From: Halomicroarcula saliterrae
Lineage (GTDB): Archaea > Halobacteriota > Halobacteria > Halobacteriales > Haloarculaceae
Length of the DNA stretch: 64,000 bases
Assembly: GCF_031624395.1 (NCBI RefSeq)
Contig: NZ_JAMQON010000006.1
Location: 1-64,000 of the forward strand
Direction: 5' to 3'
Numbering within the stretch: position 1 is the first letter of the stretch; each line of letters begins with the position of its first letter. The position numbers and the translations under genes were made by a program. The notes under the pieces are model-generated. The model saw only the letters and a list, made by a program, of their open reading frames with translations. It was not told the DNA's origin and did not search any database. Positions 16,107 to 32,827 of this stretch are shown here, one piece after another.

Positions 16107-16718
16107 ATGAGTTCCGACAGCGCCGGGCCGCGGTCGAAAGTGGCACGGCTCATCGACGCGTACGACCTCGCCCCCATCGGGGCGGACCTCGAAGCGGCGT
16201 GGCTGGGCGAGGACGGCGAGCGCCGGAGCCTGCGCGACCTCGCGGACCGCTTCAACCGGGCGCTCCTCCTCGCCGCCATCCGGGACGCGGGCATGGACAT
16301 CGTCGACGGTGAGGCCCGGAACTACTACCGGCTGCTGACAGCCGACGACGTGAGCGCGGGCACCCGCGTCGAGGCGCGCAACCGACTGGCGGGGGCCGGC
16401 GTCGACGTCGACGCGCTCCGGGAGGATTTCGTCACTTACCAGGCGGTTCGCCACTACCTCACCGAGGTCCGCGGGGCCAGCTACGAGCCCGAGGGGACGA
16501 ACACGGTCGACAGCGAGCGGACGGTCCTCGAACGGCTCCAGAGCCGGGTCGAGACGGTCGTCCGGGACACGGTCGACCGGCTGGGGACCGCCGGCAAGCT
16601 CTCAGTCGGGGAGTATCGAGTGTTCGTCAGCGTCGACGTGCTGTGTCAGGACTGTGGCGGCCAGTACAGCGTCGGGGCACTGCTGGACCGCGGTCACTGC
16701 GACTGCGACTCGCCCTGA
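16107..16718 (+). CDS. rdfA: RdfA-like rod-determining factor, copy 1
   Basis: A 203-residue haloarchaeal protein of the RdfA family, implicated in rod shape of Haloferax cells. The N-terminal helical part (SKVARLIDAYDL) corresponds to the family's C-K-x-G-R segment, but the cysteine is replaced by Ser. The middle contains SLRDLADRFNRALL and LTADDVSAGTRVEARNRLAGAGVD. The C-terminus ends in a putative zinc site CQDCGGQYSVGALLDRGHCDC. The ATG at 16107 fits the paralogue at 32882-33502. It converges with the SMC-like gene, and the two coding sequences overlap by 25 nt at their 3' ends. Confidence 0.82.
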   Translation: MSSDSAGPRSKVARLIDAYDLAPIGADLEAAWLGEDGERRSLRDLADRFNRALLLAAIRDAGMDIVDGEARNYYRLLTADDVSAGTRVEARNRLAGAGVDVDALREDFVTYQAVRHYLTEVRGASYEPEGTNTVDSERTVLERLQSRVETVVRDTVDRLGTAGKLSVGEYRVFVSVDVLCQDCGGQYSVGALLDRGHCDCDSP

Positions 16719-18682
16719 CCGATGCCGGTGACGCGGTCGTAGGCGTCGGGGAGCGCCCGGGCGTCCTCGGGCAGGAGCGCGACGACGAGATACGGGGCGT
16801 AAGAGGCGAAATACTCGACCAGGGCGGCGATGCGGTCGGCGTCGATGGCCTCCAGCGAGTCCAGCAGCATGAACGGCACCGTCTCGTGGACGTCGTGGAC
16901 GAGATAGCCCGCCAGCGCGAACACGAGGCCGGTCACCTCCCGCTCGGACTCGGAGAGGTGGTCGACGCTGTCCTCGTAGACGGTCCCGCCCTCGGAGCTG
17001 CGGACGATGTGGAGCTCGAAAGTCGACCCCTCGATGACCGAGTCGGTGTCGACGGTGGCCACGGAGTCGGCCGGACCGTCCATCCGTTCGAGCCAGATGC
17101 GCTCGACGTTCTCGTATTCGAGCAGGGAGAGCAGGTCCGACATCCGCTCGTTGAACTGCCGCGTCGCCTCGGCCTCCAGCGTGTCGATGCGGGTCCGGAG
17201 GTCGATGAGCTCCTCGACGACGGCCTCCCGCCGGTCGACGAGCGCCTCGTCGCGGCGGATTTCGGACTCGATGTCGGCGATCTCCTCGTCGAGTTCGTCC
17301 AGGGCCGACTCGAGCTCGTCGAGCTCGAACTCCAGTCCGTTGGCCTCCGAGTGCAGGTCGAGCACCTCGTCGACCTCCGCGGAGCGCAGCTCGCTCACCT
17401 TGTCTTCCAGCTCGCCGACCCGCGCCGAGAGGTTGTCCCGTCGCTCGCGGCGGTCGGCGAGCGTCGACTGGCGGCGCTCTATCTCCGCGTCGACCTCCTC
17501 GATGGTGGCTTCGAGTTCGGCCCGCCGGTCGACCGTCTCGGTGATGCGGTCGCGCTCCTCTGTCAGCTCCGCCAGCTCGGTCTCGATGTCGTCGACCGCC
17601 GCGAGCGTCTCCGTGCGGTGCTCGCGCATTCGGTCGAGGGTTGACTCGATGCGGTCGAGTTTCACCTTCGAGCCGCAGGTCCAGCAGGTCGTCTTCGAGC
17701 CCCGATAGAGCTGGTCGGTGATGTCGCCGACGGTCTCCGGGCGGGCCCCGATAGCGTCGGTTATCTGTGCGTGTTCCCCGTCGAGTAGGTCTTCGTTGAA
17801 CCCGATGACGGTCTGGAGCCGGGAGGCGTACGTCGAGAGCTCGCGCTTGCGCTCCCGGCGGTCGCCGATGCGTGACTCGATATCGTCGAGGCGGTCGGAC
17901 GGGGCGTCCGGGAGGCCGGCGCGTTCGGCCGCGAGACGCCCCCGTTCGTCCCGCAGCGCCGAGAGGCTCTCCTGCTCGGAGGCGATGTCTTCGCGGACGC
18001 GTCGGAGCTCCTCGCGCGTCGCCCGGAGCTCGTCGAGTCGTGTCTCCAGGGCGTCCGTGTTCGCCCGCGTCAGGTCGACGTTCAGGTCCCGCTGGTCGAT
18101 GCGTGCCTCGACTGTCGCCAGCTCCTCGCGCGTTTCCTCGATTGCCGCTCGCTTGCGCTCTCGCCGGCCTTCCAGCTCCGGGAGGCGCTGTTTGAGCGAC
18201 GCGACGTGGTCGAGCTGGTCGTCGATGGCGTCCTTTCGCTCCTCGGCGTCGCGTATTTCGTCGCGTATCTCGGTGATGTCGACCGGACGCATGATGATGT
18301 CGCGCAGGTCGTCCCCGCGGACCACGGCCTGTCTGGCCTCGTTGTCTTCGAGCAGGAACGCAAAGAGGTTCGCGAGGGCCGGGTCCGCGAGGACGGCCGA
18401 GCCCGACCCGACGACGCCGTCCTCGGTCCGTGTGACTGTCCGCGAGTACGTCGCCTCCCCCATCGAGAGCGTCACCGAGCCGCGAGCGGCGTCGGCCTTG
18501 ACGCTCGTCCACTCGCTGCCGTGGGCGGCCATTATCGCCTGCAAGAAGGAGGTCCGGTTGGTGGCGTTCCGACCGGCGAGCACCGTCACGCCCGGCTCCA
18601 GTTCCACGGTGGCCGACGCGATACCGCCGATATCCTCGACGGTGAACGTCGCGTCCTCGTCGAGGGCCGTCGCGGAGTCCAT
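16694..18682 (-). CDS. Archaea-specific SMC-related ATPase, copy 1
   Basis: About 662 residues with the SMC/Rad50 layout. A head half carries GRNATNRTSFLQA (residues ~37-49), a P-loop in which the usual GKS/T Lys is Arg. A long Glu/Arg-rich coiled coil is interrupted near residue 300 by a CWTCGSK zinc-hook-like turn. The second head half has signature HLSESEREVTGLVFALAGYL and Walker B PFMLLDSLEAIDAD. Such proteins are partners of RdfA. Starts at 18709 (ATG) or 18713 (GTG) are possible; 18682 best matches the paralogue. Part of the 3' region is nearly identical to the second copy. Confidence 0.85.
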   Translation of the reverse strand: MDSATALDEDATFTVEDIGGIASATVELEPGVTVLAGRNATNRTSFLQAIMAAHGSEWTSVKADAARGSVTLSMGEATYSRTVTRTEDGVVGSGSAVLADPALANLFAFLLEDNEARQAVVRGDDLRDIIMRPVDITEIRDEIRDAEERKDAIDDQLDHVASLKQRLPELEGRRERKRAAIEETREELATVEARIDQRDLNVDLTRANTDALETRLDELRATREELRRVREDIASEQESLSALRDERGRLAAERAGLPDAPSDRLDDIESRIGDRRERKRELSTYASRLQTVIGFNEDLLDGEHAQITDAIGARPETVGDITDQLYRGSKTTCWTCGSKVKLDRIESTLDRMREHRTETLAAVDDIETELAELTEERDRITETVDRRAELEATIEEVDAEIERRQSTLADRRERRDNLSARVGELEDKVSELRSAEVDEVLDLHSEANGLEFELDELESALDELDEEIADIESEIRRDEALVDRREAVVEELIDLRTRIDTLEAEATRQFNERMSDLLSLLEYENVERIWLERMDGPADSVATVDTDSVIEGSTFELHIVRSSEGGTVYEDSVDHLSESEREVTGLVFALAGYLVHDVHETVPFMLLDSLEAIDADRIAALVEYFASYAPYLVVALLPEDARALPDAYDRVTGIGQGESQSQ
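16807..16916. repeat. 110-bp tract shared with 31020-31129 (SMC-like genes)
   Basis: Positions 16807-16916 and 31020-31129 match at 109 of 110 bases, including one run of 92 identical bases (16825-16916). It encodes the Walker B region of the two SMC-like genes. The paralogues are far less alike elsewhere, so synonymous identity here suggests recent gene conversion. Confidence 0.85.
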
Positions 18683-18820
18683 GGCCCTATCTCTGACAGT
18701 GGTACCCATAAACACTGTGGCGCGGGCAGGAGCGGCGCGGAGCTATTCAGTCGTTTCTATAAGAACAGAATAACAGACCTATGTTTGTTAGGACAGATGC
18801 CGGTCGACCGGGAGAGCAGT

Positions 18821-18890
18821 CAATAACAATCAAGTAGTACCCGTTATTGCTCAAGAAAAATCGAAATCGTTCACAAACGCGTACCTATAT
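18821..18890 (+). promoter_or_regulatory. Promoter and candidate operator of the fructose operon
   Basis: A TATA box CCTATAT (18884-18890) is 25-31 nt before the ptfC ATG, so the transcript is leaderless. Upstream, CAATAAC (18821-18827) and GTTATTG (18843-18849) form a perfect inverted repeat with centres two helical turns apart. This is a plausible site for a fructose-responsive regulator. No glpR-like gene is adjacent here. Confidence 0.55.
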
Positions 18891-18914
18891 GGTAGATGAT
18901 GGACGTAGCTGCTG

Positions 18915-20072
18915 ATGTCGCAAACAATGTCAGAGAGCAATAGAATCGAGGGCGCGCTTCGCGCTCACGTCACCTCCGTCAAGGAGGACCTGATGACCGG
19001 CGTGTCGTTCATGATCCCGTTCGTCACTATCGGCGGTATCTTCCTCGCCCTCGCGTACGCGGTGGGGGATACTCAGTCAGTCTTCGACAACACCGGCTCG
19101 GCCGGCTGGTTCCTGGCCCAGGTCGGTACCGCCGGCCTCACCATCATGGTCCCCATCCTGGGGGCCTATATCGCCTACGCCATCGCCGACCGACCCGGCC
19201 TCGCGCCGGGGTTCCTCCTGTCGTACATCATCCAGCAGGGTAACGTCGTCTCCGAGGCCGCCACCGTCATCGGCGTCTCGGGCGGCGAGGCCGGCGCCGG
19301 CTACCTGGGCGCCATCGTCGCCGGGTTGCTGGCCGGCTACGTCGCGCGCTGGTTCAAGGGCCTGGACGTGCCGGAGTTCCTGGCCCCGATGATGCCGGTG
19401 CTCATCATCCCCATCGCCACGATGGCGGTCCTGACGCCCATCATGCTGTTCGTGCTGGGCGTGCCCGTCGCGCTCGCCAACGCGGCGCTGACCGGGTTCC
19501 TGCAGTCGATGCAGGGCGGCCAGGCGATTCTCGTCGGCACGATTCTGGGCGGGATGATGGCCTTCGACATGGGCGGTCCGGTGAACAAGGTGGCCTACGT
19601 CTTCTCGACGGGGCTCATCACCGAGGGCATCTACGCGCCGATGGCGGCCGTGATGATCGGCGGGATGGTCCCGCCCATCGGGCTGGCGCTGTCGAACTTC
19701 ATCTCCCCGCACAAGTACGCGGCCGAGATGTACGAGAACGCAAAGAGCGGCGTCGTGCTGGGCTTTTCCTTCATCACGGAGGGCGCGATTCCCTACGCCG
19801 CGGCCGACCCGCTCCGCGTCATCCCCGCCGTGGTGGCCGGCAGCGCCGTCGGCGGGGCCGCCTCGATGGCGATGAACATCACGATGCCCGCCCCCCACGG
19901 CGGTGTCTTCGTGATTCCGCTGTCGAACAAGCCGTTCATGTTCCTGGGCTGTATCGTCCTCGGGTCGTTCGTCACCGCCGCGGTCGCGTTGCTCCTGAAA
20001 CCCGACTTCGAGGACCGCGTCGAGGCCGGCACCGAATCGAGCGCTGGAACCGCACAGCCGAGCGACGACTAA
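18915..20072 (+). CDS. ptfC: PTS fructose transporter subunit IIC
   Basis: A 385-residue integral membrane permease with about nine hydrophobic segments beginning at residue ~25 (LMTGVSFMIPFVTIGGIFLALAY is the first). Characteristic IIC motifs are MAFDMGGPVNKVAY, near residue 215, and FITEGAIPYAAADP, near 285. The latter is the substrate-binding GA(I/V)P region of fructose IIC. There is no fused IIB. It is the first gene of a tightly spaced operon with ptfA 6 nt downstream. It moves fructose across the membrane, phosphorylating it to fructose-1-phosphate via PtfB. Confidence 0.95.
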   Translation: MSQTMSESNRIEGALRAHVTSVKEDLMTGVSFMIPFVTIGGIFLALAYAVGDTQSVFDNTGSAGWFLAQVGTAGLTIMVPILGAYIAYAIADRPGLAPGFLLSYIIQQGNVVSEAATVIGVSGGEAGAGYLGAIVAGLLAGYVARWFKGLDVPEFLAPMMPVLIIPIATMAVLTPIMLFVLGVPVALANAALTGFLQSMQGGQAILVGTILGGMMAFDMGGPVNKVAYVFSTGLITEGIYAPMAAVMIGGMVPPIGLALSNFISPHKYAAEMYENAKSGVVLGFSFITEGAIPYAAADPLRVIPAVVAGSAVGGAASMAMNITMPAPHGGVFVIPLSNKPFMFLGCIVLGSFVTAAVALLLKPDFEDRVEAGTESSAGTAQPSDD

Positions 20073-20078
20073 CACACA

Positions 20079-20552
20079 ATGACAGACCAGATACCCGACG
20101 ACATCGACGAACTGATTCCGGCGAGCCACATCTCGCTGTCCGAACCACCCGCACAGAAGGAGGCCTGTATCGAGTCCCTGCTCGACCTGCTGGTCGAATC
20201 GGGCCGCGTCGAGGACCGACAGGGAGCCCTCGACGCCTTGCTCGCCCGCGAGGCAGAGACGACGACCGGCGTCGGCATGGGCATCGGTATCCCCCACGCC
20301 AAGACAGAGGCGGTCAGCCGGCCGTCGCTGGCGTTTGCGCGCTCGGAGTCGGGCGTCGACTTCGGCTCGATGGACGACCAGCCCGCGACGCTCATCTTCA
20401 TGATACTCGTCCCGAAGGAGGGCGGGGAAGACCACCTCACGATACTCAGTTCGCTCTCGCGGGCCCTGATGCACGACGACGTGCGCGAGCGGCTGCACGC
20501 CGCCGACGACGAGAGCGAGGTGCAGGACACGCTCAGGGAGGCGATTCGATGA
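20079..20552 (+). CDS. ptfA: PTS fructose subunit IIA
   Basis: A 157-residue cytoplasmic phosphocarrier. The phospho-accepting histidine is His73 in MGIGIPHAKTEAV. The fold continues with FMILVPKEGGEDHLTILSSLSRAL, typical of the fructose/mannitol IIA family. It accepts phosphate from HPr and passes it to PtfB. The stop overlaps the HPr start by 4 nt. Identification is secure. Confidence 0.95.
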   Translation: MTDQIPDDIDELIPASHISLSEPPAQKEACIESLLDLLVESGRVEDRQGALDALLAREAETTTGVGMGIGIPHAKTEAVSRPSLAFARSESGVDFGSMDDQPATLIFMILVPKEGGEDHLTILSSLSRALMHDDVRERLHAADDESEVQDTLREAIR

Positions 20553-20827
20553 GCAAAGAACGCACCGTCGAAATCGTCCCCGAGGCGGGGCTGCACGCCC
20601 GCCCCGCGGCGCTGTTCGTCGAGGCCGTCAACGACCACGAGGCCGAAGTCGAGGCCGGACCGCCCGACGGCGACCTCGTCCCCGCCCGGAGCATGATAGC
20701 CGTCACGAGCCTCGGGGTCGGACAGGGCGACGAACTCCGGCTCGTCGCCGACGGTCCGGACGCCGGGAGCGTGCTCGACGAACTAGAGCGAATACTCACG
20801 ACCCCAGAGGACGAACTAGAGGCGTAA
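20549..20827 (+). CDS. ptsH: HPr phosphocarrier protein
   Basis: A 92-residue HPr with the active-site motif GLHARPAA (His16), and Ala-Arg-Ser-Met-Ile in the region of the regulatory serine. An acidic Glu/Asp tail fits a halophile. It shuttles phosphate from EI to PtfA. It overlaps ptfA by 4 nt and is 2 nt from ptsI. A second HPr elsewhere in the genome is possible, as in other haloarchaea, but not visible here. Confidence 0.95.
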   Translation: MSKERTVEIVPEAGLHARPAALFVEAVNDHEAEVEAGPPDGDLVPARSMIAVTSLGVGQGDELRLVADGPDAGSVLDELERILTTPEDELEA

Positions 20828-20829
20828 CC

Positions 20830-22509
20830 ATGGCATCTCGTACACTCCGCGGCACCGGCGCGACGCCCCGCTCTGGACTCGGCACGGTCGTCTGGTACGA
20901 CCCCGAAATCACGCTGCCCGACGCGGGGGAGTCGGTCGACGTCGACGCCGAACGCGACCGCTTCGCCGACGCCGTCGAGACCGCCCGCGCCGAACTGGAA
21001 CGCGAGCGCGACGCCACCGCCGAGCGCGTGGGCGAGGACGAGGCCGCCATCTTCGACGCACACATCCAGTTCCTGAAAGACCCGACCATCAAAGACGCCG
21101 TCGAGGCGAGCATCGAGGACGGTCGGCCCGCGGCGCTGGCCGTGGACGACGCCTTCGGCGGCCACATCGAGCAGTTCGAGGGGATGGAGGGCCGGATGGC
21201 CGAACGCGCCGACGATCTGCGGGACGTGCGTGACCGCCTGCTGCGGCTGCTGACCGGCGGCGAGCGCGTCGACCTCGCCGACCTGCCCGAGGGCAGCGTC
21301 GTCCTCGCCGAGCGGCTCACCCCCAGCGACACGGCCCAGCTGGACCCGGAGACGGTTGCCGGCTTCGCGACGGTGACCGGGGGGCGCACCTCGCACGCGG
21401 CCATCTTCGCCCGGTCGCTCGCGCTGCCGGCGGTCGTCGGACTGGGCGAGGCCCTGAACGACGTGGAGAAGGGCACCGAAGTCGTCGTCGACGGCGACGC
21501 GGGCGAGCTGCTGGTCGACCCCGACGAGGCCGAGCGCGAGGCCGCGCGGGCCGACGACGGTGCCGACGTGGTCGAGGAGTCCGTCGCGACGAGCGACGGC
21601 CGGGAGATAGAGGTCGCCGCGAACGTCGGCCGGCCCGAGGAGCTGGAGCCGGCGGCGGCCCGGGGCGCGGACGGCGTCGGGCTCTACCGGACCGAGTTCC
21701 TCTTTCTCGACCGACAGTCACCGCCTGAGGAGGACGAACAGTACGAGGCCGTCCGCGACGCGCTGGATACGTTCCCCGAGGGCCGTGTCGTCGTCCGCAC
21801 GCTCGACATCGGCGGCGACAAGCGGATACCGTATCTGAACCTCCCCGACGAGGAGAACCCGTTCCTCGGCGAGCGGGGCATCCGCCGGTCGCTCGACCCC
21901 GACTCGGACCTGTTTGCCACGCAGCTCCGGGCGCTGCTGCGAGCCGCCGCCGACGGCGCGGGCGAGCTCGACGTGATGTTCCCGCTGGTCGCCACGGTCG
22001 ACGAGCTGGAGGCCGCCATCGCCGCCGTCGACGACGCCGAGGCCGACCTCGACGAGCGGGGCGTCGACTACGAGCGCCCGTCGCTGGGCGTGATGGTCGA
22101 GACGCCGAGCGCCGTCTTCATGGCCGACGAGTTCGCAAAGCGGGTCGACTTCCTCTCGATCGGCACGAACGACCTCACGCAGTACGTGATGGCCGCCGAC
22201 CGGGAGAACGAGCGCGTGGGCCACCTCCACGACCCGACACACCCCGGCGTGGTGCGGGCCATCGCCCGGACCGTCGAGCAGGCCCACGAGCACGACGCCT
22301 GGGTCGGGATGTGCGGCGAGATGGCCGGCAACCCCGACGTGACCGAGCTGCTCGTCGGCCTCGGGCTGGACGAGCTCAGCATGAGCGCCGTCACCATCCC
22401 CGACGTGAAAGTCGCCGTGAGCGAGACCGAGCACAGCGCCGCACGCGAGCGCGCCGAGAGCGCGCTCCGTGTCGCAACGCGCAGCGAACTACACGAGACA
22501 ATCCAATGA
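20830..22509 (+). CDS. ptsI: PTS phosphoenolpyruvate-protein phosphotransferase (EI)
   Basis: A 559-residue enzyme I. The N-terminal HPr-binding helical domain is followed by the phosphohistidine motif GGRTSHAAIFARS (His189). The PEP-binding TIM barrel has GVGLYRTEFLFLDR, VVRTLDIGGDKRIPYL, SIGTNDLTQYVMAADREN and the catalytic Cys in WVGMCGEMAGN. It starts the PTS cascade by taking phosphate from PEP. Its TGA overlaps the ptfB start as ATGA. Confidence 0.96.
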   Translation: MASRTLRGTGATPRSGLGTVVWYDPEITLPDAGESVDVDAERDRFADAVETARAELERERDATAERVGEDEAAIFDAHIQFLKDPTIKDAVEASIEDGRPAALAVDDAFGGHIEQFEGMEGRMAERADDLRDVRDRLLRLLTGGERVDLADLPEGSVVLAERLTPSDTAQLDPETVAGFATVTGGRTSHAAIFARSLALPAVVGLGEALNDVEKGTEVVVDGDAGELLVDPDEAEREAARADDGADVVEESVATSDGREIEVAANVGRPEELEPAAARGADGVGLYRTEFLFLDRQSPPEEDEQYEAVRDALDTFPEGRVVVRTLDIGGDKRIPYLNLPDEENPFLGERGIRRSLDPDSDLFATQLRALLRAAADGAGELDVMFPLVATVDELEAAIAAVDDAEADLDERGVDYERPSLGVMVETPSAVFMADEFAKRVDFLSIGTNDLTQYVMAADRENERVGHLHDPTHPGVVRAIARTVEQAHEHDAWVGMCGEMAGNPDVTELLVGLGLDELSMSAVTIPDVKVAVSETEHSAARERAESALRVATRSELHETIQ

Positions 22510-22946
22510 AATTCGTCGCAGTCACCGCCTGTCCGACCGGTATCGCACACAGTCAGATGGGCGCCGAAAACCTAGAACAGGAAGCCGAAAAACGCGGCCA
22601 CGACATCGAAGTCGAGATTCAGGGCGCGATGGGCGCTGAGAACGAGCTCACCGCCGACGATATCGCGGCCGCCGACGCCGCCATCATCGCGGCCGACACC
22701 TCGGTCAACCGCGACCGCTTCGAGGATACCCCGCTCGTCAAGGGGACTATCAAGGACGCCGTCAACGACGTCGAGGCCCTCATGGACGAGGCCGAGGGCG
22801 CCGCCGGCGGCGACGCCGACACCGAAACGACGGTCGGTACTGACGAGGCCGACGACGCGGACCACGACAGCGGCTCTCCGGACGCGCGCCGCGGCGGCGA
22901 CCGCTCGAAGAGCCTCGTCGCCCGACTGAAGCGCCTGCTGAGCTGA
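22506..22946 (+). CDS. ptfB: PTS fructose subunit IIB
   Basis: A 146-residue IIB with the phosphocysteine at Cys9 in AVTACPTGIAHSQMGAENL, followed by VEIQGAMGAENELTADDI and AADTSVNRDRF, all typical of fructose IIB. After residue ~105 comes a ~40-residue acidic linker ending in a basic helix (SKSLVARLKRLLS) that is not part of the core domain. It might attach IIB to the membrane or to PtfC. The start is fixed by the ATGA overlap with ptsI. Confidence 0.93.
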   Translation: MKFVAVTACPTGIAHSQMGAENLEQEAEKRGHDIEVEIQGAMGAENELTADDIAAADAAIIAADTSVNRDRFEDTPLVKGTIKDAVNDVEALMDEAEGAAGGDADTETTVGTDEADDADHDSGSPDARRGGDRSKSLVARLKRLLS

Positions 22947-22977
22947 GTTCGCCGCCGAACTTGACGCCCGGTCGTCG

Positions 22978-23028
22978 CCCGACACGCACAGCCCGCCGAC
23001 CGCACCCGACAGGCACAGCCCGCTGACC
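22978..23028. repeat. Two 24-nt direct repeats upstream of fba
   Basis: CCCGACACGCACAGCCCGCC at 22978 recurs at 23005 with few changes, each unit being 24 nt (22978-23001 and 23005-23028) at a 27-nt period. They fill most of the 107-nt gap between ptfB and fba and could be a regulator site or a slippage product. Confidence 0.6.
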
Positions 23029-23053
23029 ACGCAGACACTCAACACAGACACTA

Positions 23054-23842
23054 ATGCACGATTTCACCGACTCACCGCTCGTTCGCAACGACAAGACGCT
23101 GGTACTCGCTCACGACCACGGGCTCGAACACGGGCCGAAACAGTTCGCGGGCGTCGAGGAGCGCCTCGACCCCCGAGAAGTGTTCGAGATGGCGACCCAC
23201 GACGCCGTCACGGCGCTCGCGGTCGGGAAGGGGCTCGCCGAGACCTACTACCCGAGCTACGAGGACGACGTGAATCTCCTCGCCAAGCTCAACGGCAGCT
23301 CCGACCTCTGGATGGGCGACCCCTACTCCCCGAAGAACTGGACAGTCGACTACGCCGCCGAACTGGGCGCCGACGCCATCGGCTACACCATCTACCCGGG
23401 CGTCAACCGCGAGACGGACATGTTCGAGGACTTCCGGCCGGTCCAGGAGGCCGCCCGCGACCACGACCTGCCCATCGCGATGTGGTCGTACCCGCGCGGG
23501 CAGGCCGTCAAGTCCCACCGCAGCGAGTCCATCATCGCCTACGCCGCCCGGCTCGGCCTCGAACTGGGCGCGGACTTCACGAAGGTCAAGTACCCCCGCA
23601 GCAAGGACGCGATGGCCCACGCCGTCGACGCGGCCGCGGACAACCGCGTGCTGCTGTCGGGCGGCTCGAAGACCTCCGACCGCGACTTTCTCGAACTCGT
23701 CGCGGACTGTATGGACGTGGGCGTCTCGGGCCTCGCCGTCGGCCGGAACGTCTGGCAGCGCGAGGACCCCGTCGACATCCTCGATAAGCTAGAGGACGTC
23801 GTCTTCGAGGAGGCCGCAGTCGACGCGGTGCTGGAGGAGTAA
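23054..23842 (+). CDS. fba: Class I fructose-bisphosphate aldolase (archaeal DhnA type)
   Basis: A 262-residue aldolase of the archaeal class I family. The sequence LVLAHDHGLEHGPKQF near residue 17 and the Schiff-base lysine region ADFTKVKYPRSK (around residue 177) are diagnostic. LLSGGSKTSDRDF and GLAVGRNVWQRE form the phosphate pocket. It cleaves fructose-1,6-bisphosphate made from fructose-1-phosphate by the kinase encoded two genes downstream. It follows ptfB after a 107-nt gap containing a direct repeat. Confidence 0.92.
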   Translation: MHDFTDSPLVRNDKTLVLAHDHGLEHGPKQFAGVEERLDPREVFEMATHDAVTALAVGKGLAETYYPSYEDDVNLLAKLNGSSDLWMGDPYSPKNWTVDYAAELGADAIGYTIYPGVNRETDMFEDFRPVQEAARDHDLPIAMWSYPRGQAVKSHRSESIIAYAARLGLELGADFTKVKYPRSKDAMAHAVDAAADNRVLLSGGSKTSDRDFLELVADCMDVGVSGLAVGRNVWQREDPVDILDKLEDVVFEEAAVDAVLEE

Positions 23843-23846
23843 CGCC

Positions 23847-25268
23847 ATGGTCTCCGAGCAGACGGGCGCCCACGTCAGCCCGTCCGTGGCCGGCGAGTCC
23901 CGGGCCACCGGTGAGGGCGTCGAGGTGACCGACCGCGCCACCGGCGACGTCCTGGCGACGGTCGAGACGGCCGACGACGGGACGCTCTCGGACGCGGTCG
24001 AGTCCGCCTCGGCGGTGATGCCGACGCTCCGGGAGACGCCGGCGCTCAGACGGGCGGAGTGGTGTGAAGCTATCGCGACCGGTGTCCGGGAGCGCAGGGC
24101 CGAACTCGCTGAGAGCGTCGTCCGCGAATCGGGGACGCCGATAGCGAGCGCGCGGACCGAGGTGGAGAGCGCGGCCGAGCAGTTCGACCGGGTCGCCGGT
24201 GAGCTGCGGTCGCTGACCGGCGAGTACCGGACCTGGACGACGGTCGAGCGGACCGGCGACAACTCGCTCGTCAGGGCGGCGCCGCTGGGCGTCGTCCGCT
24301 GTCGCCCGGCGGCCCGTGCGCCCCTCGCCACCGCGGCCCTGCAGGTCGCCCCCGCCATCGCGGCCGGCAACAGCGTGCTGTTGAACCCGCCGACCACGGC
24401 GTCGGTCACCGTTTCGAAACTCGCCGAGATAGTCGACCCCCACCTCCCGGCGGGGGCGTGCAGCTTCGTCCCCAGCGTCTACGTCGTCGCGAAGGGCAGC
24501 GAGACCGCCACAAACGACGTGGCCGCGGTCATCGACTCCCGGTCGACCGCCGCGCCGGGCGCGACCGGCCACCCCGGCGTCACGCGGTTCGATCTGCAGC
24601 TGGGCGGGACGGCGACGGCGCTCGTGTTCCCGGACGCCGACCTCGACGCGGCCGCGGCGACCATCGCTGGCGACGGCCCGAGCGGCGTCGACCGGCGACT
24701 CGCCGGTGCCAGCCACGTTCTCGTCCACGACTCCGTCCGGGCCGAGCTCGTCGACCGCATCGCCGAGGAGCTGGCGAGCTGGACCGCCGGCGACCTGTTC
24801 GACGAGGCCACGTCGGTCGCACCGCTGCGCGACGAGGAGCACGTCCAGCGCCTGACGAGTCGGCTCCGGGACGCCGTGGCGAGGGGCGCGGAGCTGGTCC
24901 GGGGCGGCGAGGCCGACGGGCTGACCGTCGAGCCGACGCTGGTCTCGGACGTACCCGCCGACGCGGCGCTGCGCCGCGAGGAACAGCTCGGTCCCGTGGT
25001 TCCGGTCACCGCCTTCGGCTCCCAGTCGGACGCCCTGCGTATCGCGGACAGCACCGGCCCCGCACTCGCAGCGACCGTCTTCACCGACAGCCACAGCCGG
25101 GCGATGGACGTCGCCGCGGCCATCGACGCCGGGACGGTCCGTGTGCACGGCCCCGACGCGGCCGGCGCGGTCAGCGTCGAGCGCGACCGGCTCGGCGGTA
25201 TCGGTGGACAGGGCGTCCAGGAGTCAATCACGCGGCTCACGCGGACCAAGCGGGTGGTCCAGCGGTGA
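23847..25268 (+). CDS. ALDH-superfamily protein lacking catalytic residues (probable pseudoenzyme)
   Basis: A 473-residue protein with the full aldehyde dehydrogenase fold: APAIAAGNSVLLNPP near 168, VFPDADLDAAA near 260, EEQLGPVVPV near 395 and ATVFTDSHSRAMDVA near 415. By my alignment the residues needed for catalysis are replaced. The oxyanion Asn is Arg157, the cofactor Lys is Asn180, the general-base Glu is Gln251, and the nucleophile Cys is about Leu285. It sits between fba and pfkB with 4-nt spacing and a GTGA overlap, so it is made with fructose enzymes. A regulatory or structural role is inference; no dehydrogenase activity should be assumed. Confidence 0.8.
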   Translation: MVSEQTGAHVSPSVAGESRATGEGVEVTDRATGDVLATVETADDGTLSDAVESASAVMPTLRETPALRRAEWCEAIATGVRERRAELAESVVRESGTPIASARTEVESAAEQFDRVAGELRSLTGEYRTWTTVERTGDNSLVRAAPLGVVRCRPAARAPLATAALQVAPAIAAGNSVLLNPPTTASVTVSKLAEIVDPHLPAGACSFVPSVYVVAKGSETATNDVAAVIDSRSTAAPGATGHPGVTRFDLQLGGTATALVFPDADLDAAAATIAGDGPSGVDRRLAGASHVLVHDSVRAELVDRIAEELASWTAGDLFDEATSVAPLRDEEHVQRLTSRLRDAVARGAELVRGGEADGLTVEPTLVSDVPADAALRREEQLGPVVPVTAFGSQSDALRIADSTGPALAATVFTDSHSRAMDVAAAIDAGTVRVHGPDAAGAVSVERDRLGGIGGQGVQESITRLTRTKRVVQR

Positions 25269-26155
25269 TTGGGACCGTCACGCTGAACCCAGCGGTCGAC
25301 CAGACCATGCGGGTCGACGGCCCGCTCGCGCCGGACGAGGTCATCCGCGTCGAGGACGCGCGGTTCGACCCCGGCGGGAAGGGTATCAACGTCTCGAAGT
25401 ATCTCACCGCGATGGGGACCGAGACCGTGGCGACCGGGGTCCTCGGCGGGTTCGTCGGCCGCCACGTCGCCGAGCGGCTCGAATCGGCCGGTATCGCGAC
25501 GGCGTTCGTCGACATCGAGGGGGTGACCCGAATGAACACCACCGTCCTCGCGGCGGACGACGAGTACAAGCTCAACCAGGCCGGGCCGCAGGTGTCCCCG
25601 GCCGACGTCGACGCCGTCGTCGAGAAGCTCCGGACGCGCTCGCCCGGGACGGTCGTCGTCGCCGGCAGCCTCCCGCCCGGCCTCGACAGCGACGCCATCG
25701 ACCGGCTCGCGCGGGCCGGCCCGTGGGAGACCGTCGTCGACGTCGACGGCCCCCTCCTCCGGGAGTTAGACGCCGAGTTCGAGCTCTGTAAACCGAACGT
25801 CACGGAGCTCGAAGCGGCCACGGGGCGGGAGATAACCGGCGTCGAGTCCGCCATCGAGGCGGCGCGGGAACTCCGCGGTGACCGGTTCGACCGAGTCCTC
25901 GCGTCGCTCGGCCCCGAGGGAGCCGTCCTCGTCTCGGCCGACGGGGTCGTCCACGAGCCCGCAATCGACTGTGAGGTCGTCGACACCGTCGGGGCCGGCG
26001 ACGCCCTGCTCGCCGGGGTGCTGGCGGCCACCGACGCGGGCGCTGACGACGCGGACGCGCTCCACGCCGGCGTCGTCAGCGCCACAGCGGCGGTGTCGAC
26101 CCAGGGAACGACGCTGCCGAGTCTGCCGGAGCCGACCGCGAGCGGCGTGGACTGA
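25265..26155 (+). CDS. pfkB: 1-phosphofructokinase (PfkB family)
   Basis: A 296-residue ribokinase-family sugar kinase starting at GTG 25265, overlapping the upstream TGA. N-terminal VTLNPAVDQTMRV and DPGGKGINVSKYLTAMG, middle VVAGSLPPGLD, and C-terminal DTVGAGDALLAG with catalytic Asp246 identify the 1-phosphofructokinase/tagatose-6-phosphate kinase group. With a fructose PTS upstream, the substrate is almost certainly fructose-1-phosphate. It ends the operon; the next gene is convergent after 24 nt. Confidence 0.94.
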   Translation: MIGTVTLNPAVDQTMRVDGPLAPDEVIRVEDARFDPGGKGINVSKYLTAMGTETVATGVLGGFVGRHVAERLESAGIATAFVDIEGVTRMNTTVLAADDEYKLNQAGPQVSPADVDAVVEKLRTRSPGTVVVAGSLPPGLDSDAIDRLARAGPWETVVDVDGPLLRELDAEFELCKPNVTELEAATGREITGVESAIEAARELRGDRFDRVLASLGPEGAVLVSADGVVHEPAIDCEVVDTVGAGDALLAGVLAATDAGADDADALHAGVVSATAAVSTQGTTLPSLPEPTASGVD

Positions 26156-26179
26156 GAACCGGCGGTGTCGAGGGCGACA

Positions 26180-27373
26180 CTACGGCGAGGTCAGCCCGTA
26201 GACGCTGCCGTCCGCGCTGGCGGTGAAGACGACGCCGTCCGCGATCGCGGGCGAGGCCTCGACCGACCCGTCGGTCGCGAGCTCCCACTGGACGAGCCCG
26301 TCGCCGGTCGAGAGGATGTACAGCGTGTTGTCGTCGCTGCCGACGTAGACGTTGCCGCCGGCGACCGACGGCGGCGACCGGACGGCGCCGTCAGTCTCGA
26401 ACGTCCACTGCTCGCCGCCGTCGGCCGTCGACAGCGCGCTGACGCTGCCGTCCGTGTTCCCGACGAAGACGGCCTCCTCGGCCACCGCGGGCGAGGCGAC
26501 GACCTCGCCGCCGCGCTCGCTTCGCCACTGGACGCTCCCGTCGGCCGCCGACAGGGAGAGCACGTCCCCGCCGCTGGTGCCGACGTAGACGGAGCCGCCG
26601 GACGCCGCCGGCGAGGCGTCGACCGAGTTCCCGGTGTCGAAGGCCCACTGCTCGGCCCCGTCGGCCGCCGACAGGGCGTACACCGTGTCGTCACCGCTGC
26701 CGACGTAGACGGTCCCGTCGGCCACCGCCGGCGTCGTCCGGACCTGCCCGCCGGTCTCGAAGGACCACTGTTCGTCGCCGTTCTCCGCGTCGAGCGCGTA
26801 CACGCTGTCGTCGCTGCTCCCGACGTACACGGTGTCGTCGACGACCGTCGGGGCGGCGGCGAACGGGTAGCCGCTCACCAGCGGGTTCCCCGACGCGCCG
26901 GCCTCGAACTTCCACTCCAGCTCGCCGCTGCCGGTCGAGAGCGCGTAGAGGTAGCCGTCGTAGCTCCCGACGTAGACGGTCCCGTCGGCCACCGTCGGCG
27001 AGGACCGGACGAGGTCGTCGGTCGTGAAGCGCCACTGTTCGGCGCCCGTGACGGCCGAGAGGCAGTAGACGTTCGCGTCGTTGCTGCCGACGTAGAGGCT
27101 CCCGTCGACGACCGTCGGGGAGCTAAACACCTGTTTCCCGGTGGGGAACTGCCACTGGACGATGACGTTCGTCGTCGGCCCCGTCTCCTGGGGCGCCGAG
27201 CCGGTGTTTGCGGCGTCGTATCCGAACGTCGCCCAGCGACCGATATCGGCGGGGATGGAGGGGTCACCGGTGGGGGTTCGGTTGTCTGAGTCGTTGGAAC
27301 AGCCGGCTATCCCGACCGCTCCAGCCACCCCCAGCGTCGCGAGATACCGTCGCCGCGTCTGTCGCCCGGACAT
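26180..27373 (-). CDS. Secreted PQQ-repeat beta-propeller lipoprotein
   Basis: A 397-residue exported protein. The N-terminus has twin arginines (QTRRRYLATLG) and a lipobox GIAGC with Cys25, so it is a Tat-exported, lipid-anchored protein. The body is seven or eight near-identical PQQ blades of the type DGTVYVGSGDDTVYALSAADG-EQW, giving an eight-bladed propeller on the cell surface. The DNA is correspondingly repetitive. The ATG at 27373 starts the signal; longer frames only add non-signal residues. Ligand and role are unknown. Bacterial BamB is the nearest named relative by fold, not by function. Confidence 0.85.
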   Translation of the reverse strand: MSGRQTRRRYLATLGVAGAVGIAGCSNDSDNRTPTGDPSIPADIGRWATFGYDAANTGSAPQETGPTTNVIVQWQFPTGKQVFSSPTVVDGSLYVGSNDANVYCLSAVTGAEQWRFTTDDLVRSSPTVADGTVYVGSYDGYLYALSTGSGELEWKFEAGASGNPLVSGYPFAAAPTVVDDTVYVGSSDDSVYALDAENGDEQWSFETGGQVRTTPAVADGTVYVGSGDDTVYALSAADGAEQWAFDTGNSVDASPAASGGSVYVGTSGGDVLSLSAADGSVQWRSERGGEVVASPAVAEEAVFVGNTDGSVSALSTADGGEQWTFETDGAVRSPPSVAGGNVYVGSDDNTLYILSTGDGLVQWELATDGSVEASPAIADGVVFTASADGSVYGLTSP

Positions 27374-27458
27374 GGGGCCCTCTTCCGAGTGGGCCGAAAT
27401 AAATCCATCCAATACGGTGCGAGAGGCCACCGCAGCGGCGCAGAACTCCCACAGCTCG

Positions 27459-27602
27459 TTATTCCACCGCGTAGCTCGCGATGTTGCGAGCCCCACAGGC
27501 CGGGCAGCTGTCGGTGCTCTCCTCGACGGTCCGCCCGCATTGCCGGCACTCGTGGACGACAGTCGGTGTGCGGGGCAACAGCGAGCGGAGCCGCTCAATC
27601 AT
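27459..27602 (-). CDS. Small zinc-ribbon protein
   Basis: A 47-residue protein starting at ATG 27602, opening MIERLRSLLPRTPTVVHECR. Two CxxC knuckles (CRQC at 19-22 and CPAC at 33-36) followed by Gly-Ala-Arg form a rubredoxin-like zinc ribbon. Small proteins of this build are abundant in haloarchaea and mostly uncharacterised. It is upstream of, and in the same direction as, the PQQ lipoprotein. Confidence 0.7.
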   Translation of the reverse strand: MIERLRSLLPRTPTVVHECRQCGRTVEESTDSCPACGARNIASYAVE

Positions 27603-28173
27603 CGGCACTGTCGAGGGCTGTCAGGTGGACAGGTCGGTTTGTTCGGGACATTGTCGGGCGTGTTACGTACCGTAGGCTCGTCCCCATCTATAATAGTTAG
27701 TCGGTAGTACAAGGAACGTATTCGACTGTAGTAACTGCATACTCTAAAGTTAACCTCTACGTAGTTGGAATGTAGACGGTCGCAAATTGGTTTTACGATT
27801 GAATGGAAGCGGAGCCTGTCTGACTGGTTCTCGTGTGGGACGTGGCTCCACAACCCGTGCCGTTGTCGGCTCGGAGGCCGGCATTTCTCGTCAGTTAGTC
27901 GTCGTGCTGGCGGTCGTCCTGCGCCGGGGCGACGGGAACCGCCTCGGTGACGCGGACGCAAAACCGCATGTCGTTGACCGTTAGGGAGTGGAAGTTACGG
28001 CCTCAGAGACGGTTTTAAAATTTCTCGACGGTTCTCGAAGAGTTTCAGCGCGCGAAAAGTTGCAGTAAAATGGGGTGAAAGACGCTGTATCGGGTGAACA
28101 AACGCGAATCCGTGCTAGGGGTCTGCCGTTTATATGGGGGTGGGGGAACATGGGTAGAACAAGCGATCCACCC
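27603..28173. other. Intergenic region with one promoter
   Basis: No convincing gene is visible. It is AT-richer than its surroundings around 27690-27780 and 28010-28060. A TATA box TTTATAT at 28129-28135 lies 39-45 nt before the ATG at 28174 and is the likely promoter of the two small plus-strand genes. Confidence 0.5.
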
Positions 28174-28419
28174 ATGTCCACGCTCGACCCCTCCAACCCC
28201 CGATTGCCCGCCCGCAAGAGCCACGTCACGGCAGTGATCGACCGCTGCCGGACGGCGCTCTGTGGCGCGGCCTTCTGGGCGAGTATCCCGCTTCCCCTGG
28301 TCATCGCCGCCGCGCTGGTGTCCGGTGCGGTCACCGCAGCGCCGCTGCTGGTCGTCGGACTCGTCCTCCTGAACGTCTGCTGTGCCGCCCTCGGCCACAC
28401 CTACTCCCCCAAGAGATGA
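28174..28419 (+). CDS. Small two-helix membrane protein
   Basis: An 81-residue protein. After a basic N-terminal stretch two hydrophobic helices follow: WASIPLPLVIAAALVSGAV and APLLVVGLVLLNVCCAALG. The start at 28174 follows the TATA box; a longer frame from 28075 is less likely. Its stop overlaps the start of a zinc-finger gene (ATGA), so the two are co-expressed. No named family is recognised. Confidence 0.65.
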   Translation: MSTLDPSNPRLPARKSHVTAVIDRCRTALCGAAFWASIPLPLVIAAALVSGAVTAAPLLVVGLVLLNVCCAALGHTYSPKR

Positions 28420-28595
28420 CCCTCAAACACCCGCCCACGTCCGAGCAACGCCCCGCCAAGGCCCGGCTGTTCTGCCCGACCTGTGACCACGAGAGCCCCC
28501 TCGACGGCGACTGGATCGGCGACGACACCACCCCGCGCCGCCGGCTGCTCTGTCCCCGATGTGGGGACTGCGTCGTCGACCAGCCGCGCGTCTGA
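28416..28595 (+). CDS. Small zinc-finger protein (two CPxC motifs)
   Basis: A 59-residue protein coupled by ATGA to the preceding membrane protein gene. CPTCDHESPL (residues ~20-29) and CPRCGDCVV (~48-56) can coordinate one zinc. It probably binds nucleic acid or protein at the membrane with its partner, but no function is known. It converges with the ABC permease gene after 8 nt. Confidence 0.7.
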   Translation: MTLKHPPTSEQRPAKARLFCPTCDHESPLDGDWIGDDTTPRRRLLCPRCGDCVVDQPRV

Positions 28596-28603
28596 GCCGG
28601 CCG

Positions 28604-29413
28604 TCACTCCAGTGGGTTCGTCCCCAGCGCGTTGAGCACGACGAGCGTCGCCACGGCGACGCCGACGAGGATGACCGCCACCGTGAACGCGTTCTCCACC
28701 CCGAGCGACTGGAAGGAGACCCATATCTGGACCGGCAGCGTCCGCGGGTAGAACGCGAGCATGATCGTCGCACCGAACTCCCCGATGGCGCGGGCGAACG
28801 CGAGCGTGATGCCGGCCAGGATGCCCGGCCAGGCCAGCGGCAGCGTCACCCGCCGGAAGGTCGCGAGTCGGTCCTGTCCGAGCGTGCGCGCGGCGTCTTC
28901 GAGGCTGCGGTCGACGCTCTCGAAGGCCGCTTTGGCCGTGATAACGACGAACGGTGAGGCGACAAACGTCTGCGCGAGGACGACGCCGACGAGCGAGCCG
29001 GTCAACCGAAGGCCGTTCGCGGCCGCGAGCTGACCGAGCAGTGTCCCCCGCCCGACGACCGTCAGCAACAGCATCCCGCTGACGACCGGTGGCAGGACGA
29101 GCGGGAGGACGACCAGCGAGGTCAGGACTGTCTGCAGCAGGCCCTCCGTGCGGGCCAGCCAGTACGCGAGTCCGAGCCCGAAGACGGTGGCTAACGCCGT
29201 GCTGAGCAGCGAGGTAGTCAGCGACGTCGCCGCCGCGGAGCGGACGGTCGGTGACCCCAGCCGCCGGACGACGGTTCCCGGTGGCTGGCTGAGGACCAGC
29301 GAGAGCAGCGGCACGAGGTAGTAACACAGGAGCAAGCCGCCGAGGACGAACGACACGGAGAGCCAGTCGAACCGCCCGACGACCGCCTCAGTTCGTGATC
29401 GATTCCGGGACAT
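28604..29413 (-). CDS. Molybdate/tungstate-type ABC transporter permease
   Basis: A 269-residue permease with six predicted membrane helices and the EAA loop EDAARTLGQDRLATFRRVTLPLAWPGILAG near residue 175, followed by AFARAIGEFGATIML, the typical ModB/WtpB/CysT signature. The ATG at 29413 overlaps the binding-protein gene by 26 nt. It would import an oxyanion such as tungstate or molybdate. The ATPase subunit normally next in the operon is missing; the following genes are on the other strand. Confidence 0.87.
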   Translation of the reverse strand: MSRNRSRTEAVVGRFDWLSVSFVLGGLLLCYYLVPLLSLVLSQPPGTVVRRLGSPTVRSAAATSLTTSLLSTALATVFGLGLAYWLARTEGLLQTVLTSLVVLPLVLPPVVSGMLLLTVVGRGTLLGQLAAANGLRLTGSLVGVVLAQTFVASPFVVITAKAAFESVDRSLEDAARTLGQDRLATFRRVTLPLAWPGILAGITLAFARAIGEFGATIMLAFYPRTLPVQIWVSFQSLGVENAFTVAVILVGVAVATLVVLNALGTNPLE

Positions 29414-30290
29414 TGCCAGTGTAGCGGGGGTAGTCGTCGGGGACGGTAAAGCCGAACTCGGTCAGGTACTCGCCCGTGATGTGCGCCTCGAAGACCTCGC
29501 GGGTCCGCTGTGACTCGTGTCGCAGCGTCGAGCCGTAGCTGATGACGTCGCCCGAGACGACGGTCCCGTCGGGCAGTTCGTAGCTGGTCGCCCCGTAACG
29601 TTCGGTCAGTGTGGGGTCGCTCAGGTCGATTTCGGCCGGGAGGTCCACGTAGTCGTAGCCCCGTTCCGTGGCCATGTTGCGGTACACGACGGCGGCGTCG
29701 ATAGCGCCGGTCTCGAACTGGCTGACGAGCTGGGTCTCCGGGTAGCGCTGGTCGGGCCCCGGGATGGCCTCCCTGAGGTCCAAGTCCGTTCCGTAGTAGT
29801 CGGTCGCCAGGTCGAGACAGAACAGCGTCCGGTAGCCAAGCGGGTCCAGGTCCGGGTCGGTCCGGCCCAGCGAGGTGTCGTCCTCCAGCAGCACGTCGTA
29901 CCACGGCGCACCGTTCGCGAGTCGCTCCCCGGCCGCAGTCTCGGGGTTGTAGACGACGACCAACGCGTTCGTGGCGAACTCGGCGACCCACTCGGCCGAG
30001 AGCAGCGCGTCGAACAGGGCAACGTCCGCGAGGGAGACGATGTCGGGGTCTTTCCGCCCGTCGGCGACCAGTCGGGCCACCACGGCGGAGCCGTACGCCT
30101 CCGGCTGGAGGCGCGCGTCGACCGCCGACCGGAGGCCGTTTTCGACGGCGTTGTTCAGACTCCCCGCGACGAGCAGCGAAACTGACGGGGAGCCTCCGAG
30201 AACGCCCGCACAGCCGCTCAGGCCACAGAGAGCAGTGGGCACCGCGGCGAGGAGCGCGCGGCGGCCGGTCGGCGAGTCACCCACAGTCAT
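29388..30290 (-). CDS. Extracellular oxyanion-binding lipoprotein (WtpA-like)
   Basis: A 300-residue substrate-binding protein. The signal has paired arginines (TGRRALLAAV) and lipobox GLSGC with Cys27. The mature part begins VSLLVAGSLNNAVE, as in WtpA/ModA proteins. ALVVVYNPETAAGERL, ETQLVSQFETGAIDAAVVYRNMA and the C-terminal TGEYLTEFGF follow. It captures tungstate or molybdate for the overlapping permease. A TATA-like TTATAG on the minus strand near 30315-30322 predicts a leaderless mRNA. Confidence 0.87.
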   Translation of the reverse strand: MTVGDSPTGRRALLAAVPTALCGLSGCAGVLGGSPSVSLLVAGSLNNAVENGLRSAVDARLQPEAYGSAVVARLVADGRKDPDIVSLADVALFDALLSAEWVAEFATNALVVVYNPETAAGERLANGAPWYDVLLEDDTSLGRTDPDLDPLGYRTLFCLDLATDYYGTDLDLREAIPGPDQRYPETQLVSQFETGAIDAAVVYRNMATERGYDYVDLPAEIDLSDPTLTERYGATSYELPDGTVVSGDVISYGSTLRHESQRTREVFEAHITGEYLTEFGFTVPDDYPRYTGNVPESITN

Positions 30291-30446
30291 GCACGTAATT
30301 TTCTATCTTTGACCTATAAGCCTGTCTCAAATAACGTACTGTGGTCGTGTGCCGGGCGAACACGACCACGTCACCGGACGGTGGGCGGGCGACAGGTGCT
30401 CCGCCCGGCCGACCCGTCGGTGGAGAGGCGCGATAAGAGTGGTTAG

Positions 30447-30680
30447 CCAGCGGTGACGACAGCCCAAATATATATATTCTAATATTTCAACTGAGTCCTG
30501 AACGTACCGGAGCGTACGCTTCGAGCGACTGTACTCGTCCGCACCGAGTTCGGGCACACGCTCGTTCCGAGCGCCGAGGTCCGGCCGAGACACTAGCTCG
30601 CGTCGCTCGAACGAACGGGACAGCTCCCCGAGCGAATCCCAGTTGATGACGTCGGCAGCAGTTATCTGCTCGGAAGTCAC
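30447..30680 (-). pseudogene. Remnant resembling the N-terminus of an Eco57I-like restriction-modification protein
   Basis: The stretch encodes TSEQITAADVINWDSLGELS followed by SFERRELVSRPDLG and ends without the rest of a domain. From memory, large haloarchaeal Eco57I-type methylase/restriction proteins begin with a very similar segment. Here the continuation degrades after about 80 residues and the frame has no convincing start. I read it as a decayed gene fragment. The surrounding 30291-30919 holds nothing else I can support. Confidence 0.4.
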
Positions 30681-30919
30681 ACCCGTCTTTGCGCTGCCAC
30701 CTATTTGAATCGGGGGTACACCGTTCCCTGGGTTACGGTGGCACAAGCGACGACCTGTTGGCGAGTCCGACCGCCGTCTCGGTTCGAATCGACCGGGCGG
30801 ATTGCAGCGAAGGACAGATTCTCTAGATATACGTTAGTCTGATATCTCTCCCGATAGGCCGAGCGTACCGTCGCGTTCGACGGATGCCAGAGTGCGTCTC
30901 ACGGGGCGTCGGCTGCCGG

Positions 30920-32827
30920 TCAGGCGGGAGCCTGACCCATCCGGATGCGCTCGTACTCGCCCGGGAGCGCCTGCGCGTCTTCCGGCAGGAGCGCAACGAC
31001 GAGATGTGGGACGAACGCCGCGAAATACTCGACCAGAGCGGCGATGCGGTCGGCGTCGATGGCCTCCAGCGAGTCCAGCAGCATGAACGGCACCGTCTCG
31101 TGGACGTCGTGGACGAGATAGCCCGCCAGAGCGACGACCAGCCCGATGACTTCGCGCTCGGACTCGGAGAGGTGGTCGACGGTGTCCTCGTAGACGACCT
31201 CCGCCTCGGTCGCTCTGACGACGTGGAGGCGGAACTCGCTGTCAGCGTCGTCGTCGTCCCGGACCGCCCGCTCGATCCACACCCGTTCGACGTTCTCGTA
31301 CCCCAACGTGGCCCGCACCGTCTCCATGTGGTCGTTGAACGTCTCGACGGCCGACCGTTCCAGTTCCTCGATGCGGGTGCGGGCGGCCGCCAGCTCCGCC
31401 TCGCGCTCGTCGAGGCGCGATTCGATCTCCTCGATTCGGGATTCGGCCTCGCGCACGTCGTCGAGTTCGGCCTCGACTGACTCGATCTGCTCTTCGAGCT
31501 GGCCCCGTTCGTAGGCCAGTTCCGAGCGGCGCTGGTACTGCTCCAGCAGGTCGCTGTCGCGGAGTTCGTCGGACGCCTCCGCCTCGGCTTCGAGCTCGTC
31601 GATGCGGGACTGGAGCGTCTCGGTGCGGGCCTCTAGCTCCTCGACAGTCGCCTCGCGCTCCTCGATTTCCGCCTCGATGTCGCCCACCTCGGCTTCCAGC
31701 GCCTGCCGCCGGTCGACTACCTCTCGGACGTCGGCCAGGTCCGCTCGCCGGTCCTCCCGCTTCGAGCGGAGTTCGTTCCGTTCGGTCCGCTTCTCGTCGA
31801 TGACGTCTCTGAGGTCGTCGAGGCGCTCGTCGATGGCCCCCCGCTCGACAGTCGTCCCACAGGTCCAGCACTCGACGGTCTCCCCCGTCGGGTCGAGCGC
31901 GTCGGTGACCTCGCCGTCGCCACCGGCCGGTAGCTCCCCCCGGTCGGTCAGTCGCTCGTTGAACTCGACGATGGAGAGGAGGCTGTTGACCGTGGTCTCT
32001 ATGTCGCGTTCGCGCCGCTTCAGGCGCTCTATCTCGGCTTCGAGGCGACTCCGGTCGACGTCGGGGACCGCGAGGTCGTCCAGTTCGGCCCGCACCTCGT
32101 CGCGTTCCGCACGCAGGGAGGCGAGCGCGTCCCGCTGTGTCTCCAGCTGGTTGCGGACGCGCTCGTACGTCTCGCGGGCGTCTCGCAAGTCGTCGACAAC
32201 CGCCTGGGCCGCCTCCGCGTCGTCGACGTCCGCCTCGAAGGCGGCGACCGACCCGCGGACGGCCTCCAGTGACTCGCGCACCTCGGCGAGTGCCGCCCGG
32301 TGGTCGGCCAGCCGGGCTTCGAGCTCCGGCTTCCGCTCGCGCTGGCGCTCGGCGGCCGCACGCTCCTCCCGGAGCGACTCGATGGTCGCCCGGGTCCGCC
32401 GAATCCTCGCCTCCAGCGCGTCGGTGTCGACGGGCGCCATGATGTACGAGCGAAGCGCCTCGGCGTCGCCCCGCGCGACCGCCCGCCGGGCGGGGTTGTT
32501 AGCCAGCAGGCAGGCGTACTGGTCGACGAGCGTCGACGACGTCGTGTAGGGGTCGCCGTCGACGCGGACCCGCCCGCCGTCGCGCTCGAAGGTGCGCGTG
32601 TACCGCGACCCGTCGACCGAGAGCGTCACCGACCCCGCGTCGGCGTCGGCTTTGAGCGCACCCGTCGACCCTCCGAGGGCGGCGCCGATGGCCCGTAGCA
32701 GAGACGTTCGGTTGGTGGCGTTCCGGCCCGTCAGCACGGAGACGCCGTCGGCCAGCGACACCGTCGAAGAGTCGATACCGCCGAGATTCTCGACGGCGAC
32801 CGTCATGGTTCCGTCTCGCTCCGTCAT
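30920..32827 (-). CDS. Archaea-specific SMC-related ATPase, copy 2
   Basis: A 635-residue SMC/Rad50-like protein. The head starts MTVAVENLGGIDSSTVSL and has the Arg-type P-loop GRNATNRTS (34-42). The long Glu/Arg-rich coiled coil carries a CWTCGTT zinc-hook turn near residue 315. The C-terminal head has HLSESEREVIGLVVALAGYL and the Walker B PFMLLDSLEAIDAD. It is downstream of rdfA copy 2 in the same direction, 54 nt apart, suggesting a joint transcript. It is diverged from copy 1 except for near-identical stretches in the C-terminal head. Confidence 0.87.
   Translation of the reverse strand: MTERDGTMTVAVENLGGIDSSTVSLADGVSVLTGRNATNRTSLLRAIGAALGGSTGALKADADAGSVTLSVDGSRYTRTFERDGGRVRVDGDPYTTSSTLVDQYACLLANNPARRAVARGDAEALRSYIMAPVDTDALEARIRRTRATIESLREERAAAERQRERKPELEARLADHRAALAEVRESLEAVRGSVAAFEADVDDAEAAQAVVDDLRDARETYERVRNQLETQRDALASLRAERDEVRAELDDLAVPDVDRSRLEAEIERLKRRERDIETTVNSLLSIVEFNERLTDRGELPAGGDGEVTDALDPTGETVECWTCGTTVERGAIDERLDDLRDVIDEKRTERNELRSKREDRRADLADVREVVDRRQALEAEVGDIEAEIEEREATVEELEARTETLQSRIDELEAEAEASDELRDSDLLEQYQRRSELAYERGQLEEQIESVEAELDDVREAESRIEEIESRLDEREAELAAARTRIEELERSAVETFNDHMETVRATLGYENVERVWIERAVRDDDDADSEFRLHVVRATEAEVVYEDTVDHLSESEREVIGLVVALAGYLVHDVHETVPFMLLDSLEAIDADRIAALVEYFAAFVPHLVVALLPEDAQALPGEYERIRMGQAPA
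31020..31129. repeat. 110-bp tract shared with 16807-16916 (SMC-like genes)
   Basis: This is the partner of the tract at 16807-16916, with one mismatch and the same orientation relative to the gene. A further ~40-nt block encoding the LSESERE signature is also nearly identical in both genes. Confidence 0.85.

Follow-up and report, generated by a model that had tools for sequence, protein, structure and literature searches.

The two Sph genes of the window (the whole 64,000-nucleotide stretch of Halomicroarcula saliterrae DNA analyzed here) are nearly identical in DNA sequence over one segment of the C-terminal ATPase lobe, whereas the two copies are strongly diverged elsewhere. This shared tract is best explained by recent non-allelic gene conversion between the ancient paralogs, referred to as A and B, an interpretation that we regard as very probable. 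The comparisons described below establish that the tract is shared, sharply bounded, and recent, and that such tracts recur in other members of the family.

Both genes encode archaea-specific SMC-related proteins (ASRPs; Sph in haloarchaea). They score above the curated cut-off of the NCBIfam model NF045487 (300 bits, whole-protein match), with 635.9 bits for sphA and 618 bits for sphB, and the genome that contains the window, placed here in Haloarcula, possesses five ASRP genes. The coordinates of sphA are those of the longest ORF; the real start is probably located further downstream. Each of the two genes adjoins an rdfA gene, an adjacency that is usual, but not universal, for ASRPs and haloarchaeal Sph proteins. 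The relevant features of the window are the following.

16017-16718, plus strand: rdfA1, RdfA-family partner, convergent with sphA (Pfam PF21811, E 2.7e-75)
16694-18715, minus strand: sphA, ASRP copy A (NF045487, E 6.8e-191)
16806-16915, minus strand: putatively converted tract, copy A, 109/110 identical to 31020-31129
16941-16982, minus strand: second near-identical block, copy A, ABC signature LSESERE, 41/42 identical, possibly a separate patch
18915-20072, plus strand: fructose PTS EIIC, divergent from sphA (PF02378)
20079-20552, plus strand: PTS EIIA (PF00359)
20830-22509, plus strand: PTS enzyme I, PEP-protein phosphotransferase (PF02896, PF05524, PF00391)
23054-25268, plus strand: DeoC/LacD-family aldolase and aldehyde dehydrogenase genes of the interval (PF01791, PF00171)
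30920-32827, minus strand: sphB, ASRP copy B (NF045487, E 1.7e-185)
31020-31129, minus strand: putatively converted tract, copy B, the probable recipient, with TTC (Phe) at the VPF codon, as in A-type copies
31155-31196, minus strand: second near-identical block, copy B, matching 16941-16982 at 41/42 bases
32882-33502, minus strand: rdfA2, RdfA-family partner, directly upstream of sphB (PF21811, E 2.6e-58)

The tract comprises codons ∼610–645, which encode Walker B, the D-loop, and the helix that follows in the C-terminal ATPase lobe. Positions 16806–16915 and 31020–31129 (offset 14214) match at 109 of 110 bases in exact register. The single mismatch is found at 16823/31037, which leaves a perfect run of 92 nt (16824–16915 in copy A). 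The original prediction had reported the same match and the same run, but the interval that it gave for copy A, 16807–16916, is one base off with respect to 31020–31129. It had also described a second near-identical block of ∼40 nt over LSESERE and a clear divergence of the two proteins. Both descriptions are confirmed: the block matches at 41 of 42 bases, and 280 of 615 residues are identical over the whole alignment, with a DNA identity of ∼55% outside the C-terminal lobe. The second block features a rare serine codon (TCC) that is common to both copies and present in only 3 of 76 other ASRPs. Codons 601–609, located between the blocks, are unlike in A and B, several of them being A- or B-specific, indicating that the blocks are either separate patches or one discontinuous tract.

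Identity alone proves little, because the tract lies in the most strongly conserved part of the protein, and in 101 of the 146 family genomes its DNA is 80–94% identical. Part of it is expected, and only the excess above 80–94% counts as evidence. This excess is most apparent at silent sites. Within the tract, A and B show one synonymous difference in 27.3 synonymous sites (0.037) and no nonsynonymous difference, compared with a synonymous difference of 0.48 in the remainder of the pair, which supports the predicted recent recombination between the loci. The 89 other A × B pairs have a mean of 0.43 in the tract, with a minimum of 0.13. When calculated in sliding windows (NG86), pS amounts to 0.45–0.63 over the N-terminal head versus 0.04 in codons 610–645; a low Ks along the whole head regions, which would speak against conversion, is absent. 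A permutation of the same-codon positions gave p = 2e-4. In a gene-tree simulation scaled to the tract's own rate, the number of third-position differences never fell to the observed 1 in 5000 replicates (minimum 5), and the longest run of 92 nt compares with a maximum of 53 nt among between-genome ASRP pairs from the same background-identity bin.

Comparison with orthologs leads to the same picture. In the tract, the two window copies (A0 and B0) have an identity of 0.98, whereas A0 reaches at most 0.91 with other A copies and B0 at most 0.94 with other B copies. Outside the tract, the identity of A0 and B0 is 0.55, whereas orthologs reach up to 0.78. The tract data reject the topology of the gene remainder (AU p = 0.013). 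Trees constrained to place A and B in distinct groups are not rejected on the tract (AU p 0.36–0.40), because it is short (108 nt). In addition, a TAT codon in VEYF is common to both copies and is found in none of the 19 other aligned sequences. The gene order at both loci is the same as in three relatives, and the flanks are unexchanged. The neighboring rdfA1 and rdfA2 were likewise compared, and no conversion tract was found between them (55% nucleotide identity, longest run 12).

A survey of 154 ASRP genes from 65 genomes identified three within-genome pairs whose identical runs exceed those of all between-genome pairs with a similar background; each of the three runs lies in the C-terminal lobe. 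These are the window pair (92 nt), a pair from Halomarina sp. PSR21 (G050; 178 nt), the most clear-cut of the three, which a background cut-off of 0.62 leaves out, and a pair from G066 (58 nt). The Halomarina paralogs (L169 and L170) are 62% identical in the remainder, and their perfect run covers the same lobe, in which they are 98% identical. In contrast, the ortholog pair L170–L205 drops from 88% identity in the remainder to 86% in the lobe, which directly indicates overwriting. On these comparisons, the same lobe is overwritten independently in another genus.

The linked A/B pairs of sister Haloarcula genomes (linked pairs occur in G000, G022, G009, and G017) show a same-codon fraction of 0.85 in the tract versus 0.57 in the remainder. 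The value for the tract equals that of orthologs (0.86 for A–A and 0.88 for B–B) and points to an older round of homogenization. The linked genomes share ancestry and thus count as about one observation. No such homogenization was detected in G013, whose A and B copies lie on different replicons (A13–B13, pS 0.51 in the tract).

Constraint at the level of DNA or codons, exerted by a regulatory element, an RNA structure, an overlapping gene, or codon optimization, might also hold the tract identical in both genes. The conservation across the family described above is in line with such constraint, as is a between-genome same-codon fraction that is slightly higher in the tract (median 0.59) than elsewhere (0.50). 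However, the silent sites of the tract vary between species, which argues against constraint as the cause: for A0 and ten A orthologs, the same-codon fractions are 0.61 (tract) and 0.57 (remainder). The same identity was looked for in other genomes and is absent, the ten more distant A orthologs standing at 0.61 compared with 0.97 for A and B of the window. Moreover, A0–B0 lies far above all cross-genome pairs, and the copies on different replicons in G013 have a pS of 0.51 in the tract. The same-codon fractions across species rule out constraint as the sole cause, and we consider this explanation very unlikely.

Just as improbable is an outside origin of the tract: one or both genes would have received it through mating or DNA uptake, followed by homologous recombination with DNA of another strain or species, and the neighboring paralog would not be the source. 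Haloarchaea are described as highly recombinogenic (PMC3988388), and an ASRP of a third type from G019 has a 53-nt run in common with both copies. However, the best match outside the genome amounts to 94%, so that no closer donor than the paralog is known, and the presence of one paralog's segment inside the other would still require a non-allelic step.

Least probable of all is an artefact of assembly or polishing in which one repeat replaced the other. The genome is a draft of 20 contigs, but one base differs between the copies inside the tract, ordinary sequencing reads exceed a tract of ∼100 bp in length, the surrounding gene order is that of the three relatives, and similar cases were found in other genomes.

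In the conversion that we favor, ∼60–110 bp would have been copied between A and B, both ancient members of the Sph (ASRP) family, after this lineage had separated from the relatives examined. The copied segment would encode the part of the C-terminal ATPase lobe with Walker B and the D-loop, without exchange of the flanks. A break or gap in one gene would be repaired by strand invasion of the RadA type into the other gene. Such an invasion would be feasible only in the one stretch in which protein conservation keeps the two DNAs sufficiently alike, and the tract would stop where the flanks diverge. Because the lobe is the only long similar stretch and flanks of ∼55% identity should block extension, the pattern suggests homology-limited, RadA-dependent conversion without crossover; the enzymes involved are presumably of the RadA type.

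The VPF codon reads TTC (Phe) in the A copies and in the B copy of the window, whereas it reads GTG (Val) in the other Haloarcula B copies. This two-base change in B, common with A, favors A as the donor. Judging from this single codon change and from codon patterns, transfer from A to B seems moderately more probable than the reverse. In ADR, copy A has a B-like Asp codon, as is also seen in G009, and an older exchange in the opposite direction is therefore possible. Rather unlikely, although clearly less so than the alternatives above, is the idea that repeated conversion keeps the C-terminal ATPase lobe of Sph paralogs interchangeable since paralog heads pair. If true, selection would favor matched lobes on divergent coiled coils, and proteins implicated in gene conversion would themselves evolve by it.

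Ectopic gene conversion and long-lasting, recurrent concerted evolution are known for prokaryotic paralogs (PMC6053082). As in those cases, the paralogs described here are closer to each other than to orthologs at silent sites, probably through gene conversion that recurs over time. None of the 26 genes in that survey is SMC-like, and its seven archaeal genes all come from methanogens. In contrast to them, only one lobe (∼100–180 bp) is homogenized here in genes that are otherwise 55–62% identical. In the polyploid Haloferax volcanii, intermolecular gene conversion occurs, its efficiency requires Sph1–4, and deletion of any of the four lowered survival in the assay (PMC11276520). That work also concerns haloarchaeal gene conversion and the same protein family, but it deals with alleles of a single locus carried by sister chromosomes, whereas our case concerns diverged paralogs.

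The rod shape of H. volcanii requires RdfA and Sph3, and 84% of SMC-like genes adjoin an RdfA gene (PMC10869688). The two Sph genes of the window resemble this module in their adjacency to rdfA. In contrast to it, the window has two such modules, one on each side of a fructose PTS locus, and sphA and its rdfA gene are convergently oriented.

Among open-access papers, we found no report on conversion of Sph genes. The mechanism is already known; what appears new is this instance and the fact that it recurs at a single lobe. These findings indicate that haloarchaeal paralogs of ∼55% identity can trade pieces of ∼100 bp where a conserved lobe provides enough similarity, and that this exchange happens repeatedly and at the same place. 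Protein trees of Sph and SMC-like proteins that are built on the C-terminal head can consequently mislead, and the tracts may serve as natural substrates to measure the homology needed for recombination in a polyploid archaeon.

It had further been proposed that recombination between the two genes could delete the fructose operon that lies between them. Loss of this interval is possible but unobserved: all four genomes with a linked A/B pair keep both genes and the operon, and no deletion was seen in these relatives.

The heads of the two proteins are unusual. The signature LSESERE and the Walker B/D-loop LLDSLEAID show a weak alignment to the corresponding motifs of Rad50 (3aux). With the sequences GRNATNRTS and LLDSLEAID, both copies lack the Walker A lysine and the Walker B glutamate, which are replaced by Arg and Ser, respectively, in 138 of the 154 ASRPs. 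All 154 ASRPs feature a CxxC motif midway along the coiled coil that resembles the zinc hook of Rad50, here combined with an unusual ATPase head.

The third ASRP type of G019 (contig C31, L085), which is ∼55% identical apart from its 53-nt cross-species run, perhaps reflects an older transfer. In G017 (Haloarcula rara), a sphA duplicate on the contig C2 plasmid (L064/L065) looks like the terminal redundancy of a circular record rather than a biological duplication. The duplication takes in sphA and its neighbors near both ends of the record, and similar end-placed duplicates are present in G011, G015, and G080. Among the plasmids searched for closely related strains, none covers the region.

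A link of the Sph–RdfA module to fructose use is possible. sphA is located directly beside the EIIC gene, in divergent orientation, in 23 of 23 Haloarcula genomes with this EIIC; in the 9 Haloarcula genomes that lack it, no A-type copy was seen. A second EIIC of 63% identity lies within ∼8–11 kb of another ASRP gene in G002 (C29:174148-175263) and G016 (C3:475178-476266). Within the window, positions 26180–27598 encode a protein with PQQ-type β-propeller repeats, and the corresponding DNA shows direct repeats at a spacing of 120 bases.
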